DNA from: Pseudomonas sp. GM78
GTDB taxonomy: Bacteria; Pseudomonadota; Gammaproteobacteria; Pseudomonadales; Pseudomonadaceae
Assembly: GCF_000282475.1 (NCBI RefSeq)
Contig: NZ_AKJF01000054.1
Span: 1 to 47,270, forward strand
Direction: 5' to 3'
Length of the DNA: 47,270 bases
A program made the position numbers and the translations under genes. Of the stretch, positions 4,900 through 21,195 are shown in pieces. Within the stretch, counting starts at the first letter, position 1, and each line of letters begins with the position of its first letter. The notes under the pieces are model-generated. The model did not search any database. It was not told where the DNA came from and saw only the letters and a list, made by a program, of their open reading frames with translations.

Positions 4900-6759
4900 T
4901 CACGCCTGATCCATCGTCTCAACCACCCCCTGATCCTCACCCAGAAAGCCACCGCTTTGATGCTGCCAGAGCCGCGCGTAGGTGCCGTTTCTTCCCAGCA
5001 ACTCAGCGTGGGTACCCTGCTCGATGATCCGCCCCTCGTCCATGACAATGAGTCGATCCATGGCCGCAATCGTCGACAGACGATGGGCGATGGCGATGAC
5101 GGTCTTGCCCTGCATCATTTCATCGAGGCTTTCCTGGATGGCGACTTCAACTTCCGAATCCAGGGCGCTGGTGGCCTCGTCCAGCAACAGGATCGGAGCG
5201 TTCTTGAGCATCACCCGGGCGATGGCGATGCGTTGGCGCTGGCCGCCCGAGAGCTTGATGCCACGCTCACCCACCAGGGTGTCATAGCCGCTGTGGCCTT
5301 GCCGATCGCTCAGTTGGCTGATGAAACCGTCGGCCTGGGCATTGGCCGCGGCGCTGCGCACCTGCGCGTCGGTCGCGTCCGGGCGGCCGTAGGCGATGTT
5401 GTCGCGAATCGAGCGGTGCAGCAGGGAAGTATCCTGGGTGACCATGCCGATAGCGGCACGCAGACTGTCTTGTGTCACCTGCGCGATGTTTTGCCCGTCG
5501 ATGCGAATCTCACCGCTGTTGACGTCATAGAAACGCAGCAGCAGGTTGATCAGTGTCGATTTGCCTGCACCGGAACGACCCACCAGGCCAATTTTTTCGC
5601 CTGGGCGGATATTCAGGCTCAAGCCGTCGAGCACCTGGCGTTCACCGTTGTAGTTGAAGCTCACATTGTCAAAGCTCACCGCGCCGCCAGAGGGCACCAG
5701 CACGCCGGCGTTCGGCGCATCCTGCACCTTGGGGCCGCGGGTCAGGGTTGCCATGCCGTCCTGCACGGTGCCGATGTTTTCGAACAGCCCAGTCATTTGC
5801 CACATGATCCAATGCGACATGCCATTGATACGCAACGCCATGGCAGTAATTGCCGCCACGGCCCCCGCGCCGACTTCGCCCTGGTGCCAGAGCCACAGGG
5901 CATAACCGCCGGCTGCCATGATCAATCCCACCACCAGTGCCTGATTGACGATCTCGAACTGGCTGACCAGGCGCATCTGGCGAAAACCGGTGTTCTTGAA
6001 ATCCTCCATCGCCGCGCGCGCGAAGTGCGCTTCACGATTGGAGTGCGAGAACAGTTTCACCGTGGTGATGTTGGTGTAGGCGTCCGAAACGCGCCCCGTC
6101 ATGGAGGATCGCGCATGGGCCTGCTCCTGCCCGACTTGCCCCAGTCGCGGCACAAAGTACAGCATGGCCAGCCCGAACAACGCGACCCAGGCAATAAAAG
6201 GCAGCATGAGTTTCAGGGCGAAGCCGCCGGCCAGTGCGATGATTGCAATGAAGTAGACGCCGATTCCGGGTGCGATTTCGATGAGGGTGAACAAAACTTC
6301 GCGCACGGCCAATGCCGTCTGCATCACCTTGGTGGTGACCCGACCAGAAAACTCATCGGAAAAGAATGAAAGGCTTTGCCGCAGCATCAATCGATGGAAG
6401 TCCCAGCGCAGTCGCAGCGGCAGGTTAATCGCCAATATCTGGTGCTGCACCATGGTGCGAAGCGCCACCAGCCCAATGCTGGTGAGCAACACTATCGCGA
6501 TCCCCCACAGCACTGAGCTTTCCTGCCCGTTCGCATCGCCACCGGCCTGCCAGGTCGAGAGCAGATCCACGACCTGACCAAGGAAGGAAAACAACCAGGC
6601 TTCGTAGATCGACACACTGGCACTGAGCAGCGCAAGCAAAAGGATATAGCCGCGGGCTCCACGCGTGCAGGCCCACAGGAACCGCATCAGGCCGACAGGC
6701 GGTGGTGGTGCTTCGTCGGGGGGGAATGGGTCGAGCCTTCGTTCAAACACGCGAAGCAT
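4900..6759 (-). CDS. MsbA-like ABC exporter (fused permease and ATPase)
   Basis: A 619-residue half-transporter. The N-terminal half has about six membrane helices (residues 35-310), typical of type IV ABC exporters. The C-terminal ATPase has Walker A GRSGAGKST (about 390), signature LSGGQRQ (about 500), Walker B ILLLDEATSALD (about 523) and the switch histidine in IAHRLST (about 558). It should act as a homodimer in the inner membrane exporting a lipid, peptide or drug. Start: ATG with GGAG upstream; the longer frame runs through the promoter region. Long open frames on the opposite strand here are shadows. Confidence 0.88.
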   Translation of the reverse strand: MLRVFERRLDPFPPDEAPPPPVGLMRFLWACTRGARGYILLLALLSASVSIYEAWLFSFLGQVVDLLSTWQAGGDANGQESSVLWGIAIVLLTSIGLVALRTMVQHQILAINLPLRLRWDFHRLMLRQSLSFFSDEFSGRVTTKVMQTALAVREVLFTLIEIAPGIGVYFIAIIALAGGFALKLMLPFIAWVALFGLAMLYFVPRLGQVGQEQAHARSSMTGRVSDAYTNITTVKLFSHSNREAHFARAAMEDFKNTGFRQMRLVSQFEIVNQALVVGLIMAAGGYALWLWHQGEVGAGAVAAITAMALRINGMSHWIMWQMTGLFENIGTVQDGMATLTRGPKVQDAPNAGVLVPSGGAVSFDNVSFNYNGERQVLDGLSLNIRPGEKIGLVGRSGAGKSTLINLLLRFYDVNSGEIRIDGQNIAQVTQDSLRAAIGMVTQDTSLLHRSIRDNIAYGRPDATDAQVRSAAANAQADGFISQLSDRQGHSGYDTLVGERGIKLSGGQRQRIAIARVMLKNAPILLLDEATSALDSEVEVAIQESLDEMMQGKTVIAIAHRLSTIAAMDRLIVMDEGRIIEQGTHAELLGRNGTYARLWQHQSGGFLGEDQGVVETMDQA

Positions 6760-6893
6760 TGGGGTCTCCGAAATGATCAGGGTGAGGGGATTCTGCCATT
6801 TAACGGGTGCTTTGACGGTTTGCAGGTTAAGGGCAGGACGCAATTGAGGGTTGGTTTTCCCGCATCTAAAGCGCTGAGTTGAATTTTTACAGA

Positions 6894-6928
6894 TGTAAAG
6901 GTGTGACGGGTGTAAAGGAGTGTAAAGG
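6894..6928. promoter_or_regulatory. Three direct repeats of TGTAAAGG upstream of the ABC exporter
   Basis: TGTAAAGG occurs at 6894, 6911 and 6921. The last two are exactly one helical turn apart (10 bp), a layout common for OmpR-type response-regulator sites. They lie about 135 bases upstream of the exporter start. Confidence 0.35.
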
Positions 6929-7014
6929 GCGCGCATTAGCCGGCCTCAAAAGACCACCCCTGACTAGCCTGGCTAAAGGCTCGAAACTGAGAGTGGCCTG
7001 TTTCTCCCTACCGT

Positions 7015-7680
7015 TTACGAACAATCAGAGGTTGAAATTTCGCTGGCGAAAGAGCCCGTGGTGCCGGTATCGACCTGAGCCGATGGGCTGACAGACATCC
7101 GTGCGCCGGCAGACAAGCTGCCGTTGATTCGGGGAATGTGGCACAGGGATGACTCCGTTCCCATGCTCATGCGCACATTGGCCACGTCCGCAGTGAAGGG
7201 CAGGGGCTTTTTGTTAAAGGTACCGCCCATTGCCAGGTCAAGGACCAGTTCACCCGTCTTACCCTCGATCTGGATGTCAGTGCCCATGCTGCCCGCCACC
7301 GTCAGTCTGGACTGATCGACGGCACACGCAGGTGCGACGATTTTTACCCCTGATTTTCCTGTCAGCCCTGTCAGTGGCTCGCTGGTGTACAGCGTGATAT
7401 CCAGGGCAGGGGAGGCGACGCGAACATTGTCCGCTGCGTCATTCACGAGCAATAACGCCTTGTTGTTTGTCGTCACCTGCAGCTTGTTCAGCGTATCGGC
7501 AGGGCCTGAGACCACCATTGACGACGTTGCAGCGCATTTGATCGACAGGTTGATGCCCTGTCGGGCTTCAACGCTACTGAAGGCGGCCAGCGTAAAGGTT
7601 TTTTCTGCAGCCAGTGCTGCGTAACTGGCCGTGCTCGCCAGCAGCGCAAGCATCAGTTTCATAGTGTTCATGTTATTCAT
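7015..7680 (-). CDS. Secreted DUF2807-like protein (head GIN / adhesin-like beta-helix)
   Basis: A 221-residue protein with a signal peptide (MKLMLALLASTASYAALA, cleavage before AEKTF). The body is a run of short beta strands with the FSSVEARQGINLSI and VSGPADTLNKL pattern seen in the DUF2807 putative adhesin family, which folds as a small right-handed beta-helix. Cysteines near residues 53, 115 and at the end could form disulphides in the periplasm. The start is set by AAGGAAG upstream. Function unknown. Confidence 0.65.
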   Translation of the reverse strand: MNNMNTMKLMLALLASTASYAALAAEKTFTLAAFSSVEARQGINLSIKCAATSSMVVSGPADTLNKLQVTTNNKALLLVNDAADNVRVASPALDITLYTSEPLTGLTGKSGVKIVAPACAVDQSRLTVAGSMGTDIQIEGKTGELVLDLAMGGTFNKKPLPFTADVANVRMSMGTESSLCHIPRINGSLSAGARMSVSPSAQVDTGTTGSFASEISTSDCS

Positions 7681-7844
7681 ACAACTTCCTTGTTTCACAG
7701 TAATGACGCGAGTGGCGCAGCGTTGTTTCGACACTGTACTGAGGCATGCCAAAGTCCACCAGCCGATCCCCTCCGGCCTGGGTATGCATCATCAGCGTGA
7801 CCTTGCCGGAGCGTAGCAGTAGAAATCGGAGGAACATGAAATGT

Positions 7845-7920
7845 AAAGGGGGCGGATCAATTTCCTAGAAATAAATCTAAAAAATCCGTCCCCTTTGCGG
7901 TCCGTCCCCTTTGCGGTCCC
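7845..7920. repeat. Disrupted Pseudomonas-type hairpin repeat with a 16-bp tandem duplication
   Basis: AAAGGGGGCGGAT (7845-7857) pairs with ATCCGTCCCCTTT (7884-7896) with one mismatch across an AT-rich loop, resembling a hairpin repeat frequent between pseudomonad genes. TCCGTCCCCTTTGCGG is then duplicated head to tail (7885-7900 and 7901-7916). This lies in the 419-base gap between the DUF2807 gene and 8100, at the point where core chromosome gives way to accessory genes. Nothing else in the gap is convincing. Confidence 0.55.
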
Positions 7921-8099
7921 CCGTTTTCGCCGCGTACGTTTTGTACGGGGGCGTTATTAGGGGGAGGGCCGCCAATAGGAACGAGCAACCCAAGAGTGAT
8001 TGAGTCCGGGGCGTGCTAACTCTGCGTCTTTGACAAGGAAAATGGTTGCTTCCCACTATTGGCGTACTAAGCTGATCTCGACCAACCTGGACTGCAGCT

Positions 8100-9197
8100 A
8101 TGACTATTCGGATCGCATCGTTCAACCTGGAAAATCTCTTCACACGGCCATCCGCCATGGTTGTCGACGATCCCAAAGGGCAGCAGGCAATCGATGATCA
8201 CGCGTTGGCGAATGCAATTATTGCCAAACTTGTCTATAGCGACGAAGACAAGAAAACGCTGCTGGATCTCGACCGTCGATACCATTTTTCAGCACTTAAT
8301 CCCCCTTCGAAAGCGTTGTTGACTCTCAACAAAGTGCGAGGTCAACTTTTTCGGCGGTCAAATAATGGCGTGGTATCCGTTGTTGCAAATGGGAGAGGAG
8401 ACTGGACCGGGTGGTTTGAATTGCGTCGAGAAGACGTGTCTTGGCAGGCGGTCATGAACACAGGACGAGTCATCGAAGCGGTCAATCCCGACATATTGAT
8501 ATGCGTCGAGGTCGAAAATCGTCCGACGTTGCAGCGCTTCAATGAACAAGTGCTCGGAGCTACTTTTGGTCGGGGCTTCCCGCACGTCATGGTTATTGAT
8601 GGAAACGATGCTCGTGGAATAGATGTTGGACTTCTGAGCCGCTATCCAATTATTGGCATTCGCTCACACGTTGATGATGAGTTTGAAGGCAAGCGGATTT
8701 TTTCCCGAGATTGCCCTGAATATGTGCTTCAACTGCCGTCCGGTAAGCAGCTGGTTGTTTGTCCAAATCACTTCAAATCAAAGCGAGGTGGAGACGATGA
8801 ACAAGCCAAGGCAAGGCGGCTTGTTCAAGGAGTACGTGTTTCGGAGATTGTACGATCAATAGAAGAGCAGATCAGCCCGTTCGTATTAGTTGGGGGGGAC
8901 CTCAACGACACCCCTGATAGCGTCGCAGTCTCTCCGCTGATTGGAGGTGGTTGGACGGATATCCAATCGCATCCGGGTTATCCCGCAGAAAGACCCGGTA
9001 CTTACGCAACCGGTACGGCCAGCAACAAGATCGACTATTTGATTATGTCCAGCGCCCTACAACCGTTGTTGACCGGGGTTGGAGTCGAGCGGCGAGGGAC
9101 TTACCATCCCACTTTATGGCCACCATTTGAGGGGGTGACTGCAACAACTGAAGCATCTGATCATCACTGTATCTGGGCGGACTTCAATCTGCTTTAA
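8100..9197 (+). CDS. Endonuclease/exonuclease/phosphatase (EEP) family protein
   Basis: A 365-residue protein of the DNase I-like EEP superfamily. Motifs run in order: FNLENLF (residues 8-14), the metal-binding Glu in ICVEVENRP (about 122), GIDVGLLSRYPI, CPNHFKSK (about 220), GGDLNDTPDS (about 264) and the catalytic SDHH (about 353). The set is complete, so it is probably an active Mg-dependent phosphodiesterase or nuclease. There is no signal peptide, so it acts in the cytoplasm. The ribosome site is weak. It is the first gene of the accessory island; a role in nucleic-acid defence is inferred from context only. Confidence 0.8.
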   Translation: MTIRIASFNLENLFTRPSAMVVDDPKGQQAIDDHALANAIIAKLVYSDEDKKTLLDLDRRYHFSALNPPSKALLTLNKVRGQLFRRSNNGVVSVVANGRGDWTGWFELRREDVSWQAVMNTGRVIEAVNPDILICVEVENRPTLQRFNEQVLGATFGRGFPHVMVIDGNDARGIDVGLLSRYPIIGIRSHVDDEFEGKRIFSRDCPEYVLQLPSGKQLVVCPNHFKSKRGGDDEQAKARRLVQGVRVSEIVRSIEEQISPFVLVGGDLNDTPDSVAVSPLIGGGWTDIQSHPGYPAERPGTYATGTASNKIDYLIMSSALQPLLTGVGVERRGTYHPTLWPPFEGVTATTEASDHHCIWADFNLL

Positions 9198-9233
9198 CAA
9201 ATTTAGTTTCTCAGTCGAGATTATTGCTGGGCA

Positions 9234-9641
9234 TTAAACGCTCGTGAATTTTAACACCTCTGATGTAGCGACTGTTTGAATTGCATCTACACTCATATCT
9301 TTTCTTGAGTACATCATGCGTTTTTTAAGAAATTGATCGACGATCATGTCTTTTCCACTGTTGAAAACCAGTGCCAGATAAATGCTAATGCCTAATTGTC
9401 TACTGAGCAGTGCGGTTGTTTCCTGGAATAATTGTATATTTGATGTCTTCGGTCTGGCGGGTGTGTAATGTACTTGGACGCCAAATTGTTCGTGGCGACC
9501 GTCTTTAACTCCCTCGGCGAGTAGGTCGACTGTAAAGTCACCTATCGATACCTGCTCCCGGATTGCATATCCTCTTCTTATCAAAGGCAATGCCACTGCT
9601 TTTCTGGAAAAGCGTTTCTCCAAGTCAGATTCACTTTTCAC
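9234..9641 (-). CDS. Small PD-(D/E)XK-like protein of unknown function
   Basis: A 135-residue protein starting with GTG; its start overlaps the upstream stop as GTGA, so it is translationally coupled. The core IGDFTVDLLAE followed by FGVQVHYT has the spacing of a PD-(D/E)XK nuclease centre (Asp, then a strand with xxQVx), but the usual Lys is His, so activity is uncertain. AT-rich compared with the core genes. It likely forms a two-subunit module with the gene at 9638. Confidence 0.5.
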   Translation of the reverse strand: MKSESDLEKRFSRKAVALPLIRRGYAIREQVSIGDFTVDLLAEGVKDGRHEQFGVQVHYTPARPKTSNIQLFQETTALLSRQLGISIYLALVFNSGKDMIVDQFLKKRMMYSRKDMSVDAIQTVATSEVLKFTSV

Positions 9642-10138
9642 GTTTTCTGCCCCTCGTGTTCGTCACTCGTGAATTTTGACCTAAATTCGAAAGAATGGGA
9701 TCTAAAACATTCCTCAACTTCGAAGTAGAGGTTCATGAGTGTCTTCTCATTGTTTAGATCGAAGTGTCTTGGTACGCTGCTAAAGCCTTGGGTGCGCCTA
9801 CTGTCCACAGCAATAAAAAAGACCTCTTCGCTTTCATCGCTTGTGGCGTCTACAGCAACCAGGTAAACGGGTATTTTTCTCTGGAGTGCTTTTCTAACTT
9901 CTGAGCTGGTAAATTTTGCAGGTATAGGTGAGTTCTTTTTAGCTTTGGTTGAGGTCTTAACTTGAAGCATGAAGAATGGTCCGAATTCGCCCTTGCCATC
10001 GACTAGATTTACTACAAAATCCAAAAGCTCAGCCTTAGCGCCGAGGGGTAATGCACTAAACATTATGTGATTGCCAATTGGTCTGCTCAACATTAGTGCG
10101 ACGGCAAACTCGCCTCTGTTTCCAATTGTATTATTCAA
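9638..10138 (-). CDS. DUF4365-like putative nuclease
   Basis: A 166-residue protein. N-terminal GNRGEFAVALMLSR, then LLDFVVNLVD and FFMLQVKTS match the DUF4365 arrangement, a PD-(D/E)XK-type fold in which Asp plus QVK form the metal site. It starts at TTG, a choice supported by GGAGG eight bases upstream; the nearby ATG is out of frame and stops at once. First gene of a leftward pair, divergent from operon A across a long gap. DUF4365 proteins often occur in restriction or defence loci (known of the family); a role here is inferred. Confidence 0.55.
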   Translation of the reverse strand: MNNTIGNRGEFAVALMLSRPIGNHIMFSALPLGAKAELLDFVVNLVDGKGEFGPFFMLQVKTSTKAKKNSPIPAKFTSSEVRKALQRKIPVYLVAVDATSDESEEVFFIAVDSRRTQGFSSVPRHFDLNNEKTLMNLYFEVEECFRSHSFEFRSKFTSDEHEGQKT

Positions 10139-10622
10139 GACATTTGCCTCCAGTGGGTTCTGGTTGCCTATTTTGTCTGAGTGTTTCAGTTGTTTAACAG
10201 TAAGCAGAGATTTCGATGCTCAGATTGCAGAATAGTTTAGCAGTCAATCGCGGGGTCGTAAATGCTCCCGGGTTTGTTCCCGTTGACCCGCTTGCTCTAA
10301 TGCTTGCTTTGTAAAAGTGGCGGCCAGACATGCTTTTTCATTGAGTGAATCGCTATTCTGATTTGTTATATATTATTGAATAAATATGTATAAGTAAGAT
10401 CAGGTGATCAGCTAACGTCCTCTTAAGGCATGTGTGAGGATTCTGTTGATGGTCCAGCGGTCAGGTGACCCCTTAGAGGTCTATTTAACCTGCCCAATTA
10501 AAACACCAGTGGCTGGTGCAGACGGCGTAGTGAAGTCCGTAGGAGACCTTTAAATCCATGATGTGTGGACCTCATAGAGTTTTTCGACAGAGGATGGGTT
10601 AGCGGGTTGAGTGGGGGCGATT
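10139..10622. other. Long divergent intergenic region
   Basis: About 480 bases between the leftward nuclease pair and operon A. The middle (10360-10400) is very AT-rich, with TTGTTA and TATAAG-like hexamers that could serve as promoter elements. GGTCAGGTGACC (10449-10460) is a short palindrome. No protein-coding frame with a ribosome site is visible. The gap is long enough to hold a regulatory RNA or operator array. Confidence 0.4.
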
Positions 10623-12185
10623 GTGAACTCTTTCAGAATTCTCCATGTGTCGGATCTCCATTCGCGTTCCAGTGCAGAGTCACTGCCCGCAGCGCGTATC
10701 GAACAAGTGAAACGGGAAGCCTGGAGGCATGAGCGGGTTATAGGCTCACACTTTAGGGATGACATAAAACTGATCACCAAAGCGGAACCGGTGGACTTGG
10801 TATGTTTTACGGGTGATATAGCCGATTGGGGCGTGCCAGAGGAGTACGCTGAGGCGCGTGTATTCTTCGAACAACTCGCAATTGACGTCGGTGTGACGCC
10901 AGACAGATTGTTCTTTGTGCCAGGCAATCACGATATATGTCGGGGAGTCAATGTCTCCTCTTGGAGAAAGCTACGGCAAGCCGCATTGGCTGTTGGCGAA
11001 CGTGGCGTTTCTGATTGGATGGCTGGTGGACGCGCACCATTTGGCATCAAAGCAAAACTGCGCGAGGAGGTTGGCGCTCGCCAGCAGCACTATCGCGATT
11101 GGCTGGAGAGCATGGGCCGTTCTGAGCTGCTTGCAAAAAACTCCCCGCACGGATTTCTTGGTTATCGAGTATCTCTTGAGCTTCCCGGTCTGTCTTTCCC
11201 CGTCCATATCATTGGTCTAGATACTTCGTGGCTTGCTGGTGATGATCATGACTACGGAAAGTTGATGCTGACAAACGATCAAATTGGTCGACTCTCCAGC
11301 GATGACCAAGGTGCTCCACTCAATGGCTTTCGTCTGGCGCTAATGCATCATCCACTTACTCAGTTGGTGGATTGCACCGATGCCAGAAGAATACTTGCCG
11401 ATACGACAGACCTGCTTTTGCGGGGGCATCAACATGAACCTTTGGCAGATGCTTGGACCGATGCGGATAGAGGTTTAATCGAGTTGGCTGCGGGTAGTCT
11501 CTATGAGGGAACAGAAGGTCATCGTTATCCAAATGGATATACGCTAATAAACATAATTACCGAAGACAATGGCCAGCCCAAGCGCTATGAGCTTCGCTTT
11601 CGATCATGGTCGCAACACGGGCATTGGCATGATGACAGTTCTTTATATCGCTCGGCGGTAAATGGCCGTCTTGTCCTTTCTGCTTCTAGGCATCTAAGCA
11701 AGCAACGGAATTTACCTATATCAGCGCCGCTTTTAAAATCAATCGCAGCGATGTGGGAGCGCCATCGAAAGGCTAAATCAAGGATTTTTACGTTTCATAA
11801 GCTATTATTGGTGAAGCAGTTTGCACCAAGTTATTTTAACGCGGTTTTTGAGTCTGTGAGCAATGGGCTCTCTGAAATAATAGAGCGTTGGTTGGTGCGT
11901 GAGGTTGAGCGGTACACCGGTCAGACTGAACACCTTGTCCTAAATATGGAGGATGACCGAACCCTTTGCGCTGCTAATGTGATCGCAGTCGACCAAGGAG
12001 CAATGGAAGTTGATATACATCATATCCTACAGGCGCTTCTTGCTGACGAAGAGTCGAATACGATAAAGGCGTTACGCAAGGAGTTAAATACCGGAGCACT
12101 AAAAAGGTACGAAGAACTGAAGCGGTCGGCTCGCACAAAATGGCCAGTTGATGAGGGAACTATTGTCGGTGAGATAAATATTTAG
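10623..12185 (+). CDS. Calcineurin-like metallophosphoesterase with Clp-N-like C-terminal tail
   Basis: A cytoplasmic protein of about 520 residues. The phosphoesterase motifs are complete: HVSDLH (about 12), FTGDIAD (about 66), PGNHD (about 104), LMHHP (about 244) and RGHQH (about 271), so a two-metal hydrolase acting on a phosphoprotein, nucleotide or nucleic acid is expected. Residues 370-500 are helical and show two similar units about 75 residues apart (TFHKLLLVK and HHILQALLADEESN), the period and HxLLxALL pattern of the Clp N-terminal substrate-binding domain. GTG at 10623 is preferred (GTGGGGG upstream); GTG at 10611 is possible. The kinase gene follows after 11 bases. Confidence 0.75.
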   Translation: MNSFRILHVSDLHSRSSAESLPAARIEQVKREAWRHERVIGSHFRDDIKLITKAEPVDLVCFTGDIADWGVPEEYAEARVFFEQLAIDVGVTPDRLFFVPGNHDICRGVNVSSWRKLRQAALAVGERGVSDWMAGGRAPFGIKAKLREEVGARQQHYRDWLESMGRSELLAKNSPHGFLGYRVSLELPGLSFPVHIIGLDTSWLAGDDHDYGKLMLTNDQIGRLSSDDQGAPLNGFRLALMHHPLTQLVDCTDARRILADTTDLLLRGHQHEPLADAWTDADRGLIELAAGSLYEGTEGHRYPNGYTLINIITEDNGQPKRYELRFRSWSQHGHWHDDSSLYRSAVNGRLVLSASRHLSKQRNLPISAPLLKSIAAMWERHRKAKSRIFTFHKLLLVKQFAPSYFNAVFESVSNGLSEIIERWLVREVERYTGQTEHLVLNMEDDRTLCAANVIAVDQGAMEVDIHHILQALLADEESNTIKALRKELNTGALKRYEELKRSARTKWPVDEGTIVGEINI

Positions 12186-12196
12186 AGGTGCATTTT

Positions 12197-15100
12197 ATGG
12201 CTTCAATTATTGAGTTTTTTTCTGGATTGCTGAGTTCTATTGAAAATCTGAAAACACCGAAAAATCTTACTACTGATCAAGGGCTCATGCTGGAAGTTGA
12301 GCGCGTTAGATATGGGGCAATGGGGGTCGTCTATTTTTGTCGCCAGTGTTCGGATATTGAAGATGACGAAGATGGATTTTTAGCGTTGAAGACCTTTTCT
12401 GATAAGTATTTTTTTAGTTTGGATATGACGATGATTGTCAAGCGCGAAACTTCAATTTGGGCGCAGTTGGCTGATGTTTCATTCGTCTTTCCGCTCATTT
12501 CCATTTTTATGGTGAACCATAAACCACATTTGGTAATGCCAGTCGCTAAATCTAAATGGCCAGGTGTTTACAGTCTGGCAGACGCAATAAAAATGTCTAA
12601 CAATGGGCTGGATATCCGTCAGTGTCTGGTAGCTGCGATTTGTATCTCGATTGCTATGAGTAAATCCGCAGATAAAATACCAGGTCTCGTGCATGGAGAT
12701 ATAAAACCAGATAATATTCTTTATTTAGGTCAGTATTCCTTTCTTTCAGATTTTGGTCTTGCGGGGATCGCGAATGAAATCGGTCAGTGTGGAACACCGG
12801 CTTATATGGCGCCGGAACTCTGGGATAAAGGGACCCATCAATCCGTCGGAACAGATGTTTATGCTTTTGGGGCAACACTTGGGGAAATGCTCACCGGCAC
12901 CCCCATGTTTGCTGCAAAGGGAAATGATTTGTCTGTGTGGAAAAAAATACATCAATGTAACCCCGCTAAGATAGACTCATCGAGACTTACATCTCCACTT
13001 GCAGATTTTCTAAAAAAACTTGCCCTAAGTTGCCTCTCTAAGGACTCGACCCAACGGCCTGAAAATTTCTACGTGATTCTATCCGCGCTGCTTGAAATGG
13101 GTATGAAATTGGAACCCGAGCTTACTCGCGCTGTTTCAGGATTAAAAGATGCCTTGGAGAGAAGAGATGAGGAATTAGGTGATGAGCATGTTGCGTTTCG
13201 AATCCAGATGTTGCTAGACCAAGGGGATGTCAAGACTGCGTTAAAAATATTAATGGAATTAACCGAGGATGATATCGTTGGTGAATTGTTGAGAGTTGCA
13301 GGAAGTACGTGGTCGTTGGCGGGTGACGATCTGAAAGCGCTAGATTATTTCGAACGTTATTTGGTGACCGAACCCAGCAGTCATGATCGAATTAGATGTT
13401 TGAATGAGCTCGGTTTGTCCTTGAAGCGGTTAAGTCGGTATGAGGAAGCAAAGAGTTTGTTTGAAGAGCTTATAGCCGAGTCGACGGGTATTGCAAAACT
13501 TCAGTTGATGGTTCGCTCCAACTACGTGGCAGTGCTGGCCGAAATGGATCTTATTTTTGAGGCAACAAAGCAGCTCGACTGGCTGATGCTCAATCATTCA
13601 GATTCTGACAAGGTTTTAGCTATGTATGCTCAAGTGCTAGAGCGATCTGAGAAGCTTGATGAAGCCCTGAGCATGATCCAGCGTGCGGTGTTGATTGCGC
13701 CTCGAAACGGGGAATACCAAATTATTAGAGCCGATCTTTTGCTTAGTCTGAGGCGGTTTGATGAAGCTTTGCACGCGCTTGATCGAGCTTCAGACCTTGG
13801 CTTTCTCCCTCATAGATGGTGGTTTTTAAGTCTTGTTGCTTATATGGCAATGAATCGCGCTGGAGAATGGGCTGGGGTATATCAGGCGTTGGAAAAAAAC
13901 TGCCAAAAAGAAGTGTTTGAGGCTCTCGTCACACAGTCAGTAGCGCGGGTGCGAAGCATTATGGGTGTACAAGACAACATGTGGGTACCCGAGTCGGAGA
14001 AAGATTTCAGCGGTGATAAGACGTCAACTAGTCCTCTACATTCATCCGAAAGTTCAACACCCATACGCGAAAAATTATTGGATCAAAAAAGCTCGGCAGG
14101 CTCACAGGCAGTTCATGCCCAAGAACATCGTCGAGCCATTCGCACAGGAAAAACGACACATACCCAGATCAGGATGTCGCATGTTGATGGAAGCTTTACA
14201 ATTGACTTTTATGGCAATGTGAAAGATCCAAATTATGCAAAGCAGTTCCTCAGTTCATATAATAAGATAAAGTGGAAAGTCGAAACGGATGGACTTAAAG
14301 AGCGCCAAATGAGGCATAGATTTTCATGCTGTCAGAAATGTGCATTCGATATTCTTACTGCTCGTGATGAAGGAGAAAGTTTCGTCTGCCAGGCCTGCGG
14401 GGAGCGTGGCCTAATACAATCTTCCAGCTTAACGCAGCTTGATTCTTTGGCGGTAAAGTGCAATGAGCTGATTGGGAGGCCTTTGGAGGAGGAGCAAGTA
14501 TTAGATGAAACGCTCTTGGTCGCCTTTTGGATTTCTGATGAAGAGCATTGCTCACTGATTTCTTTACGCATGGAAGGAAAAGGGTATCTTCGAGGCAAAA
14601 ATAATTCTGTTGCAGCCTCTCTTGCTGCTGACGAAATGAAAAAGCGTACAGCGTCAAAATTATCGATACCACAGTTTATTTGGTATCGAAAAATGAAAAA
14701 TCAGGATGCGGCGACTAGAACTCAGAGCTCACTTGATTTGGATGCGCTTTTACGACAGTTGCGGCGAGAGGTCGGCGTATTTTCTTCGTGTGTCATGAGA
14801 GTCGGTGGTGAGTTAGGTGAATTGGTACTAGCGGATGGCGATCATCGACTGGAGTACTTGAAGTCATTGCAGGTGCTGACTCCTCATAATATGGAGCTGA
14901 AAGGCGTGTTGGTTTCCGCAGAGCTTGCTTCCGGAAATTTAAAGGCGGCTCAGGAAGTCGTAACGTCAATGGAGCACGATGCACCGGACAATATCGAGAC
15001 GTTGATTGCAACCTGTAAATTGGCTTTGCATATGGGTAATGCTCAGCGTGCGATACCGATATTGCAACAAATTGCGGCACGAGAGCCTGGGAATGTTGTT

Positions 15101-15211
15101 TCACGCGAACTGCTAATGCAGGCTTGCCAGGAAATTGGCGATACAGAGCAATATAACAAATGCGCTCTTGAGTTACGAGCATTAGGCGTCTCTGGTGATT
15201 TATTAAATTAA
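12197..15211 (+). CDS. Ser/Thr protein kinase with TPR arrays and a zinc ribbon
   Basis: A 1004-residue soluble protein. The kinase domain (about 35-300) has glycine loop GAMGVVY, lysine in LALKTF (about 65), catalytic HGDIKPDN (166-173), SDFG (184-187) and MAPE (204-207); all key residues are present, with HGD in place of HRD as in many bacterial Hanks kinases. Helical TPR-like repeats fill about 330-580. A disordered Ser-rich linker leads to a four-cysteine zinc ribbon (CxxC...CxxC, about 709-737), and more TPR units close the protein (about 860-1000). Start ATG 12197 is set by AGAGG eight bases upstream. Clearly AT-rich, unlike core genes. It probably phosphorylates partners of the same operon on infection or stress. 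Confidence 0.82.
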   Translation: MASIIEFFSGLLSSIENLKTPKNLTTDQGLMLEVERVRYGAMGVVYFCRQCSDIEDDEDGFLALKTFSDKYFFSLDMTMIVKRETSIWAQLADVSFVFPLISIFMVNHKPHLVMPVAKSKWPGVYSLADAIKMSNNGLDIRQCLVAAICISIAMSKSADKIPGLVHGDIKPDNILYLGQYSFLSDFGLAGIANEIGQCGTPAYMAPELWDKGTHQSVGTDVYAFGATLGEMLTGTPMFAAKGNDLSVWKKIHQCNPAKIDSSRLTSPLADFLKKLALSCLSKDSTQRPENFYVILSALLEMGMKLEPELTRAVSGLKDALERRDEELGDEHVAFRIQMLLDQGDVKTALKILMELTEDDIVGELLRVAGSTWSLAGDDLKALDYFERYLVTEPSSHDRIRCLNELGLSLKRLSRYEEAKSLFEELIAESTGIAKLQLMVRSNYVAVLAEMDLIFEATKQLDWLMLNHSDSDKVLAMYAQVLERSEKLDEALSMIQRAVLIAPRNGEYQIIRADLLLSLRRFDEALHALDRASDLGFLPHRWWFLSLVAYMAMNRAGEWAGVYQALEKNCQKEVFEALVTQSVARVRSIMGVQDNMWVPESEKDFSGDKTSTSPLHSSESSTPIREKLLDQKSSAGSQAVHAQEHRRAIRTGKTTHTQIRMSHVDGSFTIDFYGNVKDPNYAKQFLSSYNKIKWKVETDGLKERQMRHRFSCCQKCAFDILTARDEGESFVCQACGERGLIQSSSLTQLDSLAVKCNELIGRPLEEEQVLDETLLVAFWISDEEHCSLISLRMEGKGYLRGKNNSVAASLAADEMKKRTASKLSIPQFIWYRKMKNQDAATRTQSSLDLDALLRQLRREVGVFSSCVMRVGGELGELVLADGDHRLEYLKSLQVLTPHNMELKGVLVSAELASGNLKAAQEVVTSMEHDAPDNIETLIATCKLALHMGNAQRAIPILQQIAAREPGNVVSRELLMQACQEIGDTEQYNKCALELRALGVSGDLLN

Positions 15212-15243
15212 CGAGACGTGAAGTTCTTGTTAGTGAGGGTTCG

Positions 15244-16152
15244 ATGGCACGGCAACCTGATATTTCAACGAAGAAGCTCTCTCCTTGGGATCAGTATAAA
15301 GAAAAGCCCACAGATATAGCGATGGAGTCAATCTACATCCACGTTGAAAGTGTCGCAACGATGATGTGCGGATGGTACTGGACCAGCATTCGTGTCAAGC
15401 GATGGACCTCTTTGGTTGTGAGGGCTGCTTCATTTTTACTATTGCTCGTGGGTACTACACTTCCTATATTTTCTGCAATTCAAGTAAGTTATGAGTCGCG
15501 TCTCTTGTTTGCGCAAAGCGCTGTAGCGCTATTAGCTCTGGCAGGGTTAATTCAGGTGGCAGATCGGATTTTTGGTTGGTCAAGTGGCTGGGTGCGTTAT
15601 ATTGTTACAGTCACTGCCATGGAGAATTTACTGCGTGTCTTTGAGTTGGAGTGGGCGAACTACCTGCTCTCAAAGAAAGGGGGGCTGGACACTGCTGATG
15701 TTAAAGTATTGTTTGATCTTGCAAGGGGTTTTGAGGGTGAGATGACAAAGTTACAAGCTGACGAAACAACAAAGTGGGTTGTCGAGTTTAATTCTGGGGT
15801 GTCTTTATTGGAGTCACTTATAAAAACGCAGCGCGAAGAGGTTGATAAGGAAATTGAGTCAATAAAAACGACTCTGAATGCACAGAGTGACGTGGATAAA
15901 ACAGGCCGTGAACTGTCGCGCCCCGGTTCTATTGAATTGACTTTGATGCACGTATCGGGTCCTTGTTTGGTCAGTGTACAACTGGACAAAGAGACGCCTG
16001 TTGATTTTTTTGGTACTGTTTGGTGTCGGGTAAATGTGAGCCCCGGTTTTCATGTTGTATCAATCGCTGCATTGGGTGAGGTCATGCAAACTACTCAAAG
16101 GGTTATTGAGGTGTCATCAGGGGGTATTGCTCGCATAGAAGTAAAATTGTGA
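15244..16152 (+). CDS. Two-TM SLATT-like membrane protein with C-terminal beta domain
   Basis: A 302-residue inner-membrane protein, third gene of the operon (32 bases after the kinase). Two adjacent membrane helices (about 56-78 and 88-108) follow a helical N-terminus, and a long helix with coiled-coil character runs to about 215; this is the layout of SLATT domains, two-TM effectors of nucleotide-activated defence systems that are thought to make pores. The last 75 residues look like a PEGA-like beta sandwich (VSPGFHVVSI). No cyclic-nucleotide synthase is nearby; the partners are a kinase and a phosphoesterase. SLATT assignment is by pattern only. Confidence 0.55.
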   Translation: MARQPDISTKKLSPWDQYKEKPTDIAMESIYIHVESVATMMCGWYWTSIRVKRWTSLVVRAASFLLLLVGTTLPIFSAIQVSYESRLLFAQSAVALLALAGLIQVADRIFGWSSGWVRYIVTVTAMENLLRVFELEWANYLLSKKGGLDTADVKVLFDLARGFEGEMTKLQADETTKWVVEFNSGVSLLESLIKTQREEVDKEIESIKTTLNAQSDVDKTGRELSRPGSIELTLMHVSGPCLVSVQLDKETPVDFFGTVWCRVNVSPGFHVVSIAALGEVMQTTQRVIEVSSGGIARIEVKL

Positions 16153-16279
16153 GATGAATCAAGGTCTACCTAATAGCAGTCCATTACTTCCCCGCCTGCA
16201 AAAAATCTAACAGTCTTTGCCAAAAGGGGTACCTGAGCCAGACCGCTCAACGCTATTCGACGGAGGTCATTTTCCCTAA

Positions 16280-16706
16280 GTGGAAAGTAAGACTGGGGCA
16301 AAGTCCGAATGGGTCGCCTTTCTTCGTTGGTCGCTTGGAACATCTACCGTGCGCAGTTCGCCACCCCAGCCGATCGAGAATGTCTTCGCGTTGCCCGACG
16401 CAGCAACCTGGCTCGAAGAGAATGCCGTCCCAGACGTGGCGATCTGGATACATCCGCGTAACAGCATCGATGGTGGCGAAAAGGTGGATTTCCGCGGCGC
16501 GTTCCTGCTCACACAATTTTGAGTCCATGGGCGACGGCCCAGACTTCGACAAATTGCTTCGTCTGCCGCTTGCGCGAGCGTGCACTTACGCGGACGGGGA
16601 GTCCGATGTCCTCTCCGAGCTGATTGTCGGTCAGCCGGCAAGTAAGGAAAGCCCGAACGACAGTTTTCGATTCAATCTTCACAATCCCACGCCGTTCGGA
16701 TTGTAA
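16280..16706 (+). pseudogene. Possible frameshifted gene upstream of the DUF4062 gene
   Basis: Two overlapping frames on the plus strand look like one protein broken near 16520. The first (GTG 16280, GGAGG at 16262-16266) contains IENVFALPDAATWLEE and ends LLTQF. The second, one frame over, contains FDKLLRLPLARACTYADG and LSELIVGQPASKESPN and ends at 16706. Both use G/C in third positions as Pseudomonas genes do. The family is not recognised. Competing minus-strand frames exist, so this is tentative. The rest of the 685-base gap between operons A and B shows nothing else. Confidence 0.3.
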
Positions 16707-16838
16707 AACTCCCATAAAGAGTGGGTCAATTGCCAACGTATTGGCTAGACTTTGGTCGTTGAAGTAGAGGTCCTATCGCTACAGGTTTTGCTTTAATCAC
16801 AGAATCTTTAGAGTCTCAGGTTGAGGGTAGGAGCAAGG

Positions 16839-17963
16839 ATGGCCCAATCTAAGAAAATCAAGGTCATGCTTTCCAGTCGCTGCAATGACCATTTTCCAGC
16901 CGAAAGTGATCAAACGCTCAGCGACCTACGCGAGCAAATCAAGCGCGAAATCGAAGCATCTCAGCTTTTCGGAAAGCCAGTATTTGAAGTCTGGATCAAT
17001 GAGGACGCCCCTCCCGCAGATGGCACTCAGGATAGCTGGGATACTTGCTTGCAAGCTGTCCGAGACTGTGACGTCATGCTGGTCTTGTCCAATGGCAACG
17101 CTGGCTGGGCAAAGGGCGTCGGTGATGTCGGAATTTGTCATGCCGAATATATGGAGGGCTTGGCCACCACTCGTGGAAAGGTTCGCCTAATTGCGATGCC
17201 AAACGTTGTGCTGGGTCAGGAGCACGAGGCAGCGTCGGCGCGCAATAAACGGTTTCAGGATTTTGTTTCACTGCAGACACCTTTCCGAGGTGGCACGGTT
17301 TCCACTGTCGAGCAATTGCGCAGTCGAGTACATGAAGCGCTTCTTGATGCTGTGGTTGTCTTGACTCAGCGTGGAGTCACCGCGGCTGCTTCTACTCGCT
17401 TCGACATGGGGCAAGCTCTGGATTGGACTCGCCTCGATTTCAGTCAACGCAAGCGAGCCATGGAAGCTGTTCTGATAAGGGCGCTTGCCGGAACAGAAAC
17501 CCCGGCGAGCGAGACGGTCGCCGTTGTTCCCATTGGCGGTTTGGATGTGGCGGTTCTCGTCCATGCTATCCCGGCAGCCTTCACTGTCCCGGCGGCGCGG
17601 GAACTTGTAGGCAAACCCTTTCTACGTGATCACCAACATGCGCAAACTCTGAACGAGGCAGTGGGGCCTTTGCATCTAATTGCCTGCCATCGAGGTGCAA
17701 CGGAGGCACAGGCAACTGCACTGCTAGGTTTTGCCGATGCCACGGTGGTTAGTGGCCCTTTCGGCATCTTTGTGGCCGATGATGTACAGAAAGTGCAGTT
17801 TGCGTTCCTGGCAAACTCTCGTGATGAAACGCAAACCCGCCATGCTCTGCAGAGATTCAAGGAGTGGCTGGATCAGACAGGCGAAGCTGAGATTTTGGCG
17901 AGACGGGCCGCTTCACGCGCCAAGATCGTTCGGGTCATTGCAGCCGAGTATCAAGGGAGATAA
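16839..17963 (+). CDS. DUF4062-like (TIR/SLOG-like fold) protein
   Basis: A 374-residue soluble protein. Residues 5-130 follow the DUF4062 pattern: KIKVMLSSRCND at the first strand, DSWDTCLQAVRDCDVMLVLS in the middle, and ICHAEYMEGL with a catalytic-type Glu. DUF4062 resembles TIR and nucleoside-deoxyribosyltransferase folds that sense or cleave nucleotides. The rest (about 190-374) is a mixed alpha/beta region without a known name. ATG 16839 has GGAG just upstream and is preferred over TTG 16821. It lies five bases before the PhoD-like gene, so the two are co-translated. A sensor or NAD-cleaving role is inferred from fold resemblance only. Confidence 0.6.
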   Translation: MAQSKKIKVMLSSRCNDHFPAESDQTLSDLREQIKREIEASQLFGKPVFEVWINEDAPPADGTQDSWDTCLQAVRDCDVMLVLSNGNAGWAKGVGDVGICHAEYMEGLATTRGKVRLIAMPNVVLGQEHEAASARNKRFQDFVSLQTPFRGGTVSTVEQLRSRVHEALLDAVVVLTQRGVTAAASTRFDMGQALDWTRLDFSQRKRAMEAVLIRALAGTETPASETVAVVPIGGLDVAVLVHAIPAAFTVPAARELVGKPFLRDHQHAQTLNEAVGPLHLIACHRGATEAQATALLGFADATVVSGPFGIFVADDVQKVQFAFLANSRDETQTRHALQRFKEWLDQTGEAEILARRAASRAKIVRVIAAEYQGR

Positions 17964-17968
17964 CAAGG

Positions 17969-19735
17969 ATGGCCAAGTCACTCTTCACCGTGGGACCCGT
18001 TTTGTCGTTTCGCGGTATCAGCGCAGGGCAGTGGAAGGTAACGGCACTGATTGGTATTGCCAGTGGTGCGGCAATCCCTGAAATTTTTATCGAAGGACAC
18101 GACTGTGCGGCACCGACAGTTTTGTTGACGCGATCCAAGGACATTATCCTTCGCTATGACCTTAGTTGTGCACTCAAGAGTCAGGAACGTGTCGTCGAAT
18201 TCGGCTTGGTGAACGGCGGCCCGAAATGGAAGTTCTCAGTCCCGGGAAAAGACTATGCCCCCCGAATGGCTTATGTCTCGTGCAACGGTTTTTCCGATCC
18301 CAGCGCCATGCGCAAGTTGGCCCGACCTGAAAATGCTGTCTGGGCTGACCTTGTCGGCAACCATGACAACGAATTGCGTATTCCCGGTTTCGAGTTGGAT
18401 AAAGAGCAGCTATGGCATGAAGGCCGAATTCATGACAAGGGTCTGAAGCGCTTTCACTTACTACTGATGGGTGGGGATCAGATTTACTTCGACTCCATCT
18501 GGGAAGATGTCAAACCTCTCAAGAAGTGGGTGGGCATGGCGCGCAAGGAACAGCTGACTTATGAAGTGAGTGCCGCCCTCGAGAAGGAGATTGAATCCTA
18601 TTATTTCGAGCATTATGCCCAGCGCTGGTTAGCGAAAACTCGTCGCGATTGGGGCAAGGGCAAACCGAATTTGGATGCTGCCGATGCGATGGCAAGAATT
18701 CCTACTGTGATGATGTGGGACGACCACGACATATTCGATGGCTGGGGATCCTATAGCCCCCAGATGCAGGACTGCCCGGTGTTCAAGGTTTTGATGCGCT
18801 GCGCACGTCAAGCTTTCTGGGTTTTCCAGCTTCAGCATGCTCTTAAGGATCTGCCACCTCTGCTGATGCAGAGTCGAGCAAATCTTTCCAAGCAGGATCC
18901 GCAGTATGAGCCGATCGAGTGGAGCCTGAAGTTGAAGGATGATCCCTTGGCTCTGCCACTTCTCGATAAACAACCAGGATTCAGTTTTGGTCACCATATG
19001 GGGCCGGTTTCATTGTTTGTCGGTGATTTGCGTACTGAGCGCTCTCGTACCCAGGTGCTCGGGGCCGCAAGTTGGACGGCCATGCAGGCTTGGCTCAACA
19101 CACTTCGCGATGGCAAACCGACTCATCCAGGTAGCAAGTGTCAGCATCTGATATTCATGTCGTCGGTTCCTGTTGCCCATCCCAAGTTATCGCTGGCCGA
19201 GGGCTTGCTTGATACTTTTGGTCAGGATCATGTACTCGACAGCAATGCTGATGATCTCAAGGATCACTGGTCGCACGGCGACCATGAGGGTGAACGTAAA
19301 CGACTATTGGAGTCACTGACCCGCGTTGCCGAAGAACGAATGCTGCGTGTGTCGATCGCCTCGGGAGACGTGCATGTTGCGGCTTGGGGCAGTTGCTACC
19401 GTCGAGACATCCCTCCGACCTCCAACTGGGCGCAGATCCAGCAGTTTACCTCGTCTGGAGTAGTTCATCCGTCTTTGATTGGAGTGTTTGAACGGTTGTT
19501 CCTTCAGTTACTAAATCATACTGCCAGTAAGGTTCAGTCCATCGACGTACAGCAATGCGTCGAAATGATGTTGTTCCCGGGGTACGACCGCTATGTGATG
19601 CCGTCTCGGAACTGGTTGGCGTTTGAGTTGGATATGGGGGGCGAGAAAGGTTGCAAGCTTTGGGCGACTTGGCGTTGTGAAACTGAGGTAGGTTTTTCCA
19701 ATCATCTACAAGCGGTGCATCCGGCTCAGAAGTAG
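17969..19735 (+). CDS. PhoD-like metallophosphatase (alkaline phosphatase D family)
   Basis: A 588-residue protein with no signal peptide, so cytoplasmic, unlike classical secreted PhoD. An N-terminal beta-rich domain (1-95) leads into the phosphatase fold: GGDQIYFD (168-175), MWDDHDIFDGWGS (249-261) and SGDVHVAAW (about 464-472), the metal-binding series of the PhoD-like group. It likely hydrolyses phosphomono- or diesters. It is co-transcribed with the DUF4062 gene and ends the island, just before the prophage attachment site. A pairing of a nucleotide-handling sensor with a phosphodiesterase would fit a defence or stress system; that is inference. Confidence 0.7.
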   Translation: MAKSLFTVGPVLSFRGISAGQWKVTALIGIASGAAIPEIFIEGHDCAAPTVLLTRSKDIILRYDLSCALKSQERVVEFGLVNGGPKWKFSVPGKDYAPRMAYVSCNGFSDPSAMRKLARPENAVWADLVGNHDNELRIPGFELDKEQLWHEGRIHDKGLKRFHLLLMGGDQIYFDSIWEDVKPLKKWVGMARKEQLTYEVSAALEKEIESYYFEHYAQRWLAKTRRDWGKGKPNLDAADAMARIPTVMMWDDHDIFDGWGSYSPQMQDCPVFKVLMRCARQAFWVFQLQHALKDLPPLLMQSRANLSKQDPQYEPIEWSLKLKDDPLALPLLDKQPGFSFGHHMGPVSLFVGDLRTERSRTQVLGAASWTAMQAWLNTLRDGKPTHPGSKCQHLIFMSSVPVAHPKLSLAEGLLDTFGQDHVLDSNADDLKDHWSHGDHEGERKRLLESLTRVAEERMLRVSIASGDVHVAAWGSCYRRDIPPTSNWAQIQQFTSSGVVHPSLIGVFERLFLQLLNHTASKVQSIDVQQCVEMMLFPGYDRYVMPSRNWLAFELDMGGEKGCKLWATWRCETEVGFSNHLQAVHPAQK

Positions 19736-19891
19736 TGGTCCTCAGTTTACAGGCAGTGACATCGTTCTCTAGGTGCGCCGTCCTATCGGTAGTTGACGGC
19801 TCGACGACGCTGTGAGCGTAAGATAGTAAATTCAGCCGCTGTCAAGATTTCATCCAAGGTGTGGGCTGTGAGGCTTTTCCAAAAGCCAGAA

Positions 19892-19932: not shown

Positions 19933-19988
19933 TGGCGGAGGCGATGGGATTCGAACTCATGGACCTGTTACAGTCGACGGTTTTCAAG
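19933..19988 (-). other. attL: displaced 3' part of tRNA-Ser(TGA)
   Basis: Read leftward, the segment runs from the anticodon loop CTTGAAA (anticodon TGA) through the long variable arm and TTCGAAT T-loop to the acceptor end and CCA (19933-19935). The 5' half of the tRNA is missing: upstream of the loop the bases do not pair with the ACCGT side of the anticodon stem. This is what integration into the 3' end of a tRNA gene leaves behind. The integrase starts 140 bases away. The intact tRNA should be at attR, to the right of the window. Confidence 0.75.
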
Positions 19989-20127
19989 TCCGACGAATAA
20001 ACCTGATATTTCAAGAGTTTAGCCTTTATCGGTTTCCGCAGTAAAGCTTTCTCCAATGCTCTGGAGGCCACTGAAATCAAGGGGGGGCACTTTACTTGCG
20101 GAAACGAATTTGGCCTGTTCTTTGGCT

Positions 20128-21195
20128 TCATCGGGTGGGCTTTACAATCTCCCCGACGCGCCGGTAAACAGTCTCGGTGATGCGCTTGTCGGTGTGGCCG
20201 AGCAGTCGACTGGCGTGCCCCAAATCGTCGATTTCGCTCGCTGCCTTTGGCCGGATATCCCTGAACTGGAATTGCCGGATGCTTGCAGCGAGTGCCGGGT
20301 CTTCATCTTTCAGCGCTTTAACGATTGCTACGTTGCGTGCGTCGTCGAAGCGTAGACGGAGCATCGGCGCGGTCACCCGACGACCATCCTCGGTGACAAT
20401 TAGGTAAGGGTTCCGGACGGCGCGCGCCTTTCGTTGCTGGAGCAACCTTTCGATCAGCTCACCCAAGCCGTTGATGACCTCCCCGGCATCGAGCCGAATC
20501 CGCAGCTTCTTCGAGGTCTTGCCCTGAGCGACCTGCAGGAAGCTGTCAATGACATCGGTAGCCCGCATAGACAGAACGTCAGCCGGACGCTGAGCAGTGA
20601 AATAGGCCAGGTCCATGGCGTCCTTCAGTTCTGGCGATGCCGCCCCGTAAACGGCATTCCAGATGGTCGCGTCGGCGTAGAAATCGCGCGGCGTTTCTTT
20701 GTTCTTGCGCACGCCAGAAGCAGGGTTCTCTTTTTCGGTGATACCCCATTCCCTGGCGATGTTGTAGATGTGCGAGAGAAGCGAGATTTCGCGGTTCGCC
20801 CGAACCTTTCCGGTTCGCTTGTCGCGGTACTGCGCGATTGCCTGTGGCGTCACGGCGTTGATCGGCGCATCACTGAATGCCTTCCTAAGCTGCGTCAGCG
20901 AGAGCAAGTTGTCTTTCTGGGTTCTAGGCTTCTTCCCTGGAATGATTTCGGCCTCGTAACGGTCAAACACCTTGCCCAGCAGCGTGTTCTTCGCTGGCAC
21001 CGGTTTGCAGTCGAGCTTCGCCCATTCCGCTTTGGCAATGTCCAAATCCCCACCAAGAGGAATTTCAATCCTCTTCCCCGCACTATCTTTCCCGTCGTAG
21101 TAATACCCCACCCACTGCACACCGCTTTTCAGCGTCCTGACCCGCCGGATCATCCGAGGCGGCAGGTCTCTGTTTGCTGCCTTTCTTGGGCGCAT
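20128..21195 (-). CDS. int: Prophage tyrosine integrase
   Basis: A 355-residue phage integrase. An N-terminal arm-binding segment (WVGYYYDGKDSAGKRIEIPLG) is followed by a SAM-like core-binding domain (about 75-170) and the catalytic domain. Catalytic residues are visible: Arg in TAQRPADVL (about 200), a Lys in the beta hairpin (KTSKKLRI), RDIR (about 311, with Arg where His is usual but as often in this subgroup), His in LGHTDKRIT (about 331) and the nucleophile Tyr in TVYRR (about 340). It catalyses integration and excision at the adjoining tRNA-Ser site and ends the leftward operon. Confidence 0.92.
   Translation of the reverse strand: MRPRKAANRDLPPRMIRRVRTLKSGVQWVGYYYDGKDSAGKRIEIPLGGDLDIAKAEWAKLDCKPVPAKNTLLGKVFDRYEAEIIPGKKPRTQKDNLLSLTQLRKAFSDAPINAVTPQAIAQYRDKRTGKVRANREISLLSHIYNIAREWGITEKENPASGVRKNKETPRDFYADATIWNAVYGAASPELKDAMDLAYFTAQRPADVLSMRATDVIDSFLQVAQGKTSKKLRIRLDAGEVINGLGELIERLLQQRKARAVRNPYLIVTEDGRRVTAPMLRLRFDDARNVAIVKALKDEDPALAASIRQFQFRDIRPKAASEIDDLGHASRLLGHTDKRITETVYRRVGEIVKPTR

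Follow-up and report, generated by a model that had tools for sequence, protein, structure and literature searches.

A candidate kinase-centred conflict operon with an adaptor-docked, exchangeable effector in Pseudomonas sp. GM78

Composition of the three-gene operon

This study concerns an operon of Pseudomonas sp. GM78 coding for a calcineurin-like phosphoesterase, a Hanks-type kinase and a SLATT_2 membrane protein, located in a stretch of 47,270 nucleotides of contig NZ_AKJF01000054.1 (assembly GCF_000282475.1, 7.29 Mb), referred to below as the window. A first-pass annotation of the letters and their open reading frames had described an AT-rich trio of genes on one strand with gaps of 11 and 32 bases, and both points are borne out. 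With starts at 10623 and 12197, the phosphoesterase gene (gene 1) lies at 10623..12185 (+), the kinase gene (gene 2) at 12197..15211 (+) and the SLATT gene (gene 3), which begins with ATG, at 15244..16152 (+); the GC content is 42-49% over 10-16 kb, whereas the left flank (1-8 kb) has 55-61%. The reading frame of gene 1 opens with GTG at 10611, and the GTG at 10623, in frame with it, is the start chosen in the first-pass annotation. That of gene 2 runs from GTG 12188 and contains an in-frame ATG at 12197 preceded by GAGGT, giving a product of about 1004 amino acids from the ATG or 1007 from the GTG. Residue numbers of gene 1 and of the kinase motifs are counted from the GTG starts.

The N-terminal ~340 amino acids of the gene 1 product form the phosphoesterase part (Pfam Metallophos PF00149, 4.2e-13), in which five metallophosphoesterase motifs are intact (DLH15, GDIAD68, GNHD105, MHH245 and GHQH272). 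Its closest relatives of known structure, all of them weak matches, are Rv0805/Icc (E 0.002-0.03), a cyclic-nucleotide phosphodiesterase, and SbcD (0.058), a nuclease subunit; none of them is a protein phosphatase. Behind this domain lies a C-terminal region (residues 355-524; 11673..12182, +), here called the adaptor, which is common to a hydrolase encoded beside a homologous kinase in Rhizobium and is weakly Clp_N-like. When aligned to Clp_N with hhalign, the adaptor gave a local match at an HxLxALL motif (E=0.0014, probability 17.7%) with a score of 26.9, versus a maximum of 20.4 over 100 column shuffles, and the reversed alignment also scored below it. The Pfam Clp_N model found no adaptor match at E≤10. 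The likeness to Clp_N is therefore suggestive only, and identity with that family is not established. GAAD, an adaptor domain of GAP1-N1 conflict systems, gave no match at E≤10 on either the window adaptor or the Rhizobium adaptor.

Gene 2 codes for a protein kinase domain (Pkinase PF00069, 4.5e-24) followed by tetratricopeptide repeats (TPRs). The catalytic motifs of the kinase are intact (K68 in LALKTF, HGDIKPDN169, SDFG187 and APE208). Between two TPR blocks lies a zinc-ribbon-like element, C715xxC718...C734xxC737 (14330..14398, +), which was absent from the first-pass annotation; the region matches no Pfam family of note, and all four cysteines are kept in the Rhizobium relative of the kinase.

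The gene 3 product is a member of SLATT_2, well above both curated cut-offs (PF18183, 6.8e-19, 68.9 bits versus 25; NF033633, 2.9e-49, 167.1 bits versus 40), with two hydrophobic, transmembrane segments at residues 55-83 and 85-111. Beta strands are predicted in its C-terminal region by a low-confidence single-sequence model (predicted local distance difference test, pLDDT, 45; mostly under 60). One relative was found on plasmids, a Pseudoalteromonas protein with 35% identity over the full length, and the C-terminal extension is common to both. Among 57 genomes, the window SLATT protein was found in its own genome only, and the SLATT_2 family among 293 genomes of the order was limited to the own genome and one match under the cut-off.

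Distribution of the kinase and exchange of the effector domain

The kinase was searched against plasmids, whole genomes and viruses. Of 72,556 plasmid records, 164 match it at E≤1e-5 and just two cover at least 80% of it, both from Rhizobium phaseoli; this plasmid kinase, 29.2% identical over 97% of the 1007 residues, is the sole full-length relative found. The kinase was found in its own genome only among 398 genomes of the genus and 398 of the phylum, scans whose query picks up the Rhizobium kinase at E=5e-18, and likewise among 369 genomes of the class (E≤1e-30; at most two candidates scored per listed genome). It was found in none of 297 genomes of the Rhizobium-like family of genome G461 (E≤1e-20, a set without a positive control), and two stretches of G461 (L191 and L192) contain no adaptor, SLATT or kinase relative. 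Among 50,697 phage records none matched at E≤1e-8, and viral contigs scanned with the kinase, chimeric, anchored and SLATT queries contained no relatives. A DNA pattern for K-T-F...F-x-F-P-x-I picked out 41 viral and 89 genome stretches with no relatives among them, an absence that is weak evidence because the pattern was derived from two sequences only.

One of the two R. phaseoli plasmid records was opened (L003, 14.9 kb). Its kinase gene lies at 5923-8916 and is overlapped by 4 bases by the gene directly upstream (L003:4676-5926). In place of the phosphoesterase, the upstream gene codes for an alpha/beta-hydrolase (Abhydrolase_6), which BLASTP aligned to the gene 1 product over the C-terminal ~150 residues only (24%, E=4e-9). 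A plasmid search with the window adaptor returned, at E≤0.01, only these two Rhizobium records. Differing catalytic N-terminal domains thus stand over the same C-terminal domain upstream of homologous kinases, the arrangement typical of effectors that an adaptor couples to a hub. By analogy with GAP1-N1 systems, the phosphoesterase most probably serves as an interchangeable effector and is joined to the kinase hub via a hub-specific adaptor. As for the co-occurrence of the three genes, which had been suggested as a check, no second trio was found, whereas the pair of effector-adaptor and kinase does recur in Rhizobium.

Besides the second R. phaseoli record, four more plasmid homologues of the Rhizobium hydrolase domain were found at E≤1e-15. 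In the Acetobacter homologue (L184; 53% identity, E=1e-97) the C-terminal adaptor is GAAD, and this hydrolase-GAAD gene is the first in a gene run whose fourth gene is DO-GTPase1, found with a query from the GTPase locus L006. The Acaryochloris homologue (L193) adjoins an NB-ARC-TPR gene, with a second NB-ARC-TPR gene further on. In R. ruizarguesonis (L194:6896-8626) and Methylobacterium (L195:6941-9349), the hydrolase domain is followed by a long C-terminus without a Pfam family, possibly representing more unnamed adaptors or hubs. In all four relatives compared, similarity to the Rhizobium hydrolase breaks off between its residues 245 and 247, in the Acetobacter one at 245.

The N-terminal domain of gene 1 also has homologues in conflict loci, where phosphoesterases found with NACHT, STAND or DO-GTPase genes share 22-33% identity with it (NACHT locus, 30.6%; STAND locus, 26.3%; GAP1-N1 locus, 27.8%). 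At L004 the phosphoesterase frame runs into NACHT and FGE-sulfatase domains, with an in-frame stop inside the phosphoesterase part and two genes annotated; at L005 the phosphoesterase homologue and an nSTAND nucleoside triphosphatase (NTPase) form one protein; and at L006 the homologue carries GAAD and lies beside GASH, two DO-GTPases and GAP1-N1. DO-GTPase1 occurs in 11 plasmid records, nine of which were opened, two Klebsiella records being left out. In eight of the nine, the operon begins with a gene annotated as a metallophosphoesterase, and in the other with the hydrolase-GAAD gene. GAAD is present in all five DO-GTPase loci tested for it (L006, L183, L184, L186 and L188; 2e-18 to 2e-11) and GAP1-N1 in both loci tested (L006 and L189). 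Effectors of the same types thus occur in GTPase loci as well as within or next to genes for STAND-type NTPases. One of the DO-GTPase loci, on Aliivibrio salmonicida plasmid pVSAL840 (L186, 1407-12813), consists of a metallophosphoesterase, a GASH region with an intervening IS30 transposase, and GTPases, and adjoins the RADAR genes rdrAB.

Proposed mechanism, alternatives and relation to known systems

Based on these sequence comparisons, we propose, with a probability of roughly 0.6, that the trio is a kinase-centred conflict (anti-phage) operon with an adaptor-docked, exchangeable effector. The kinase-TPR-zinc-ribbon-TPR protein would act as sensor and switch, its autoinhibition being lifted by infection. 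The kinase would then bind, and probably phosphorylate, the C-terminal adaptor of gene 1, whereby the phosphoesterase would be positioned or released to cut a nucleotide or nucleic acid, so that the infected cell would stall and phage would be held off. As a second effector, the SLATT protein may open the membrane, prompted either by the change in the nucleotide or by the kinase, whose substrate it would then be; membership of the SLATT protein in the unit is suggested by the operon order with its 32-base gap, the similar composition and the precedent of GAP1-N1 systems. The defence reading of the first-pass annotation is supported by the defence-type genes, the intact kinase and phosphoesterase, the SLATT membrane protein and the strain-variable hotspot, while the on/off switch that it had proposed is not.

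More tentatively, and at somewhat less than even odds, the operon may represent a new class of hub within the network of bacterial conflict systems that share effectors. In it, the place of the GTPase or the STAND/MoxR NTPase would be taken by a Hanks kinase that also contains TPRs and a zinc ribbon. The hub's own adaptor would license interchangeable effectors, their release would be set by phosphorylation, and the SLATT pore would be a second arm in the phosphoesterase version. If true, kinase signalling would join the switches that govern a shared repertoire of immune effectors in bacteria. The recurrent boundary at hydrolase residue 245 would mark the point where an effector swaps its C-terminal partner on changing hub, making the adaptor-to-hub pairing a testable code. 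Moreover, the compact three-gene operon would allow joint study of kinase-controlled immunity, of what defence phosphoesterases act on and of how SLATT proteins are activated.

Several results weigh against the proposed kinase-centred operon. Confidence in it is limited because the hub is rare and was found at two independent loci only. The adaptor (residues 355-524) has no Pfam match of note and belongs to no recognised family, and its single-sequence AlphaFold2 model is worthless (pLDDT 34). No SLATT gene was seen in the 14.9 kb Rhizobium locus, nor in the nine opened DO-GTPase loci, where a two-row hidden Markov model was used that may miss other SLATT subfamilies; the published SLATT precedent is therefore not reproduced here. 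The Pseudoalteromonas SLATT relative has a housekeeping-type neighbourhood, in which neither a kinase nor a phosphoesterase is annotated. In PADLOC, the phosphoesterase matches 'Effector' (2e-21) and PDC-S60 (5e-18), and the kinase matches MAD6 and PD-T4-6, as single domains only; the SLATT protein has no match. Finally, the two opposite-strand genes upstream of the trio also have a low third-position GC content (0.41 and 0.45), and composition therefore does not mark out the trio.

Three other explanations were weighed. In the switch of the first-pass annotation, the phosphoesterase undoes phosphorylation by the kinase, the pair forming an on/off control over the SLATT protein. Both enzymes are intact and adjacent, and the calcineurin superfamily includes protein phosphatases. 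At the Rhizobium locus, however, an alpha/beta-hydrolase with the same C-terminal domain replaces the phosphoesterase and no SLATT gene is seen; moreover, the nearest solved relatives of the phosphoesterase, although weak, point elsewhere (Rv0805/Icc and SbcD), and its domain homologues accompany NTPase and GAAD modules, that is, they occupy the effector position. This replaceability of the phosphoesterase speaks against the switch, which we consider improbable. Equally improbable is an envelope or metabolic stress signalling operon with no immune role. Stress signalling often involves kinase-TPR proteins, and one SLATT_2 relative lies among housekeeping genes, but the operon is sporadic, AT-rich and located in a strain-variable hotspot, it carries SLATT, and its effector domains are found repeatedly in conflict systems, including a locus that adjoins RADAR in Aliivibrio.

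A two-gene system of effector-adaptor and kinase, with the SLATT gene as an unrelated or independent downstream neighbour, is unlikely but deserves more weight than either of these. It would agree with the Rhizobium locus lacking SLATT and with the nearest SLATT relative being solitary on its Pseudoalteromonas plasmid. On the other hand, the SLATT gene follows on the same strand after 32 bases, and its third-position GC content (0.43) is like that of the kinase (0.42) and phosphoesterase (0.46) genes, unlike that of the next genes, DUF4062 (0.53) and PhoD-like (0.58). In addition, the pairing of calcineurin with SLATT is reported for GAP1-N1 systems (PMC7159879).

The closest parallels come from the same source, in which Kaur and colleagues describe conflict systems that exchange effectors but not cores (PMC7159879). 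The variable effectors of GAP1-N1 systems are reported there to include an alpha/beta-hydrolase and, most commonly, calcineurin phosphoesterases; the effectors are either fused to GAP1 or coupled by way of EAD1 or, frequently, of GAAD, and SLATT genes stand beside nucleotide-related effectors on several occasions. Actinobacterial GAP1-N2 systems, which are GTPase-based, are described as having active kinases, often with zinc-ribbon fusions, as partners (PMC7159879). According to PMC8195603, the N-terminal domain varies among TRADD-N proteins and can be a calcineurin-like phosphoesterase, while the effectors fused to bDLD3 include an alpha/beta-hydrolase. As stated in PMC13092281, phage defence by DS-8 and DS-9 requires the metallophosphatase domain.

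The operon resembles GAP1-N1 systems in that its first gene codes for a calcineurin phosphoesterase with a C-terminal helical adaptor, or in L003 for an alpha/beta-hydrolase, and also in the reported SLATT companion, the zinc ribbon in the hub component and the sporadic distribution. It differs in having a single kinase-TPR-zinc-ribbon-TPR protein as hub and an adaptor not recognised as GAAD. A Pfam scan of the trio and six neighbours found no GTPase, GAP1-N1 or GASH, all of which the same kind of scan detects in L006; GAP1-N1 was not found in the own genome either, in a search that gave no match in any genome. With neither a DO-GTPase pair, GAP1-N1 and GASH in these nine genes nor GAAD on the adaptor, membership of the GAP1-N1 systems was rejected. 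DS-8 (NF053861; 1e-20, 72.9 bits versus a cut-off of 790) and DS-9 (NF053862; 3e-15, 56.2 bits versus 420) have a homologous catalytic domain; membership was rejected since the scores are far under the cut-offs and neither the NACHT of the former nor the HAD phosphatase of the latter is present in the genes scanned. SMODS/SLOG systems have SLATT_2 in common with the operon, the protein here carrying a C-terminal extension, and no SMODS or SLOG partner was found in the nine genes. The Hanks kinase domain is held in common with MAD6 (2.5e-26), PD-T4-6 and PglW, but the MADS, PD-T4-6 and BREX kinases were rejected because the matches centre on the kinase domain with a short overhang at most and no MADS or BREX partners are present in the genes scanned; against NF047741 the window kinase scores 44.9 bits of a 460 cut-off. 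NB-ARC/NACHT/STAND loci (L004, L005 and L193) have related effector domains, but their partner, within one protein or in the adjacent one, is an NTPase and not a kinase. The earlier statement that no described system has this trio agrees with our searches, as no named system of this make-up was found in the libraries or open-access papers searched, and none of these papers was seen to describe a kinase hub that has this adaptor. The layout seems new, its parts being borrowed from known immune systems.

Genomic setting of the operon

The operon lies in a variable, AT-rich host hotspot (7765..19878) downstream of tRNA-Ser, which is bounded on the other side by a conserved host gene. In the same-species genome G285 (L147, 1600-18000), some 16.5 kb of other cargo, in which SIR2, ParA-like, WYL and AddA-like/PD-(D/E)XK genes are found, separates the left flank from a complete tRNA-Ser(UGA). 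In the window, the 3' 60 nt of tRNA-Ser(UGA) (19933..19992, -) are 97% identical to the intact tRNA-Ser region of G285 and adjoin a prophage integrase gene (20128-21195, -). This remnant is probably the host-side junction of the prophage attachment site. The prophage mentioned in the first-pass annotation is real, with genes for integrase, replication O-like protein, DnaB and terminase. Its description as tRNA-linked holds only in a qualified sense, since ARAGORN found no tRNA in the window and it is the tRNA fragment that lies beside the integrase. Based on the tRNA-Ser remnant by the integrase and the comparison with G285, the trio most likely sits in the host hotspot beside the prophage and not within it. 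The prophage stretch has a short match (4%) to four Pseudomonas phages, and a second integrase-like protein is encoded within it between the replication and terminase genes (39662-41020, +).

The island around the trio had been described as one of nuclease-like genes. An Exo_endo_phos domain is clear and DUF4365 just above the cut-off, whereas MTES_1575 is weak and under it. The weak MTES_1575-type, restriction endonuclease-like protein and the DUF4365 protein are encoded by overlapping genes (9234-10138, -) and possibly form a small nuclease module. Downstream, about 650 bases (16160-16820) separate the SLATT and DUF4062 genes and contain short overlapping open reading frames only, which may be remnants. 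The DUF4062 gene is followed after 5 bases by a PhoD-like phosphatase gene (16821-19735 together), constituting a second phosphoesterase module of different composition.

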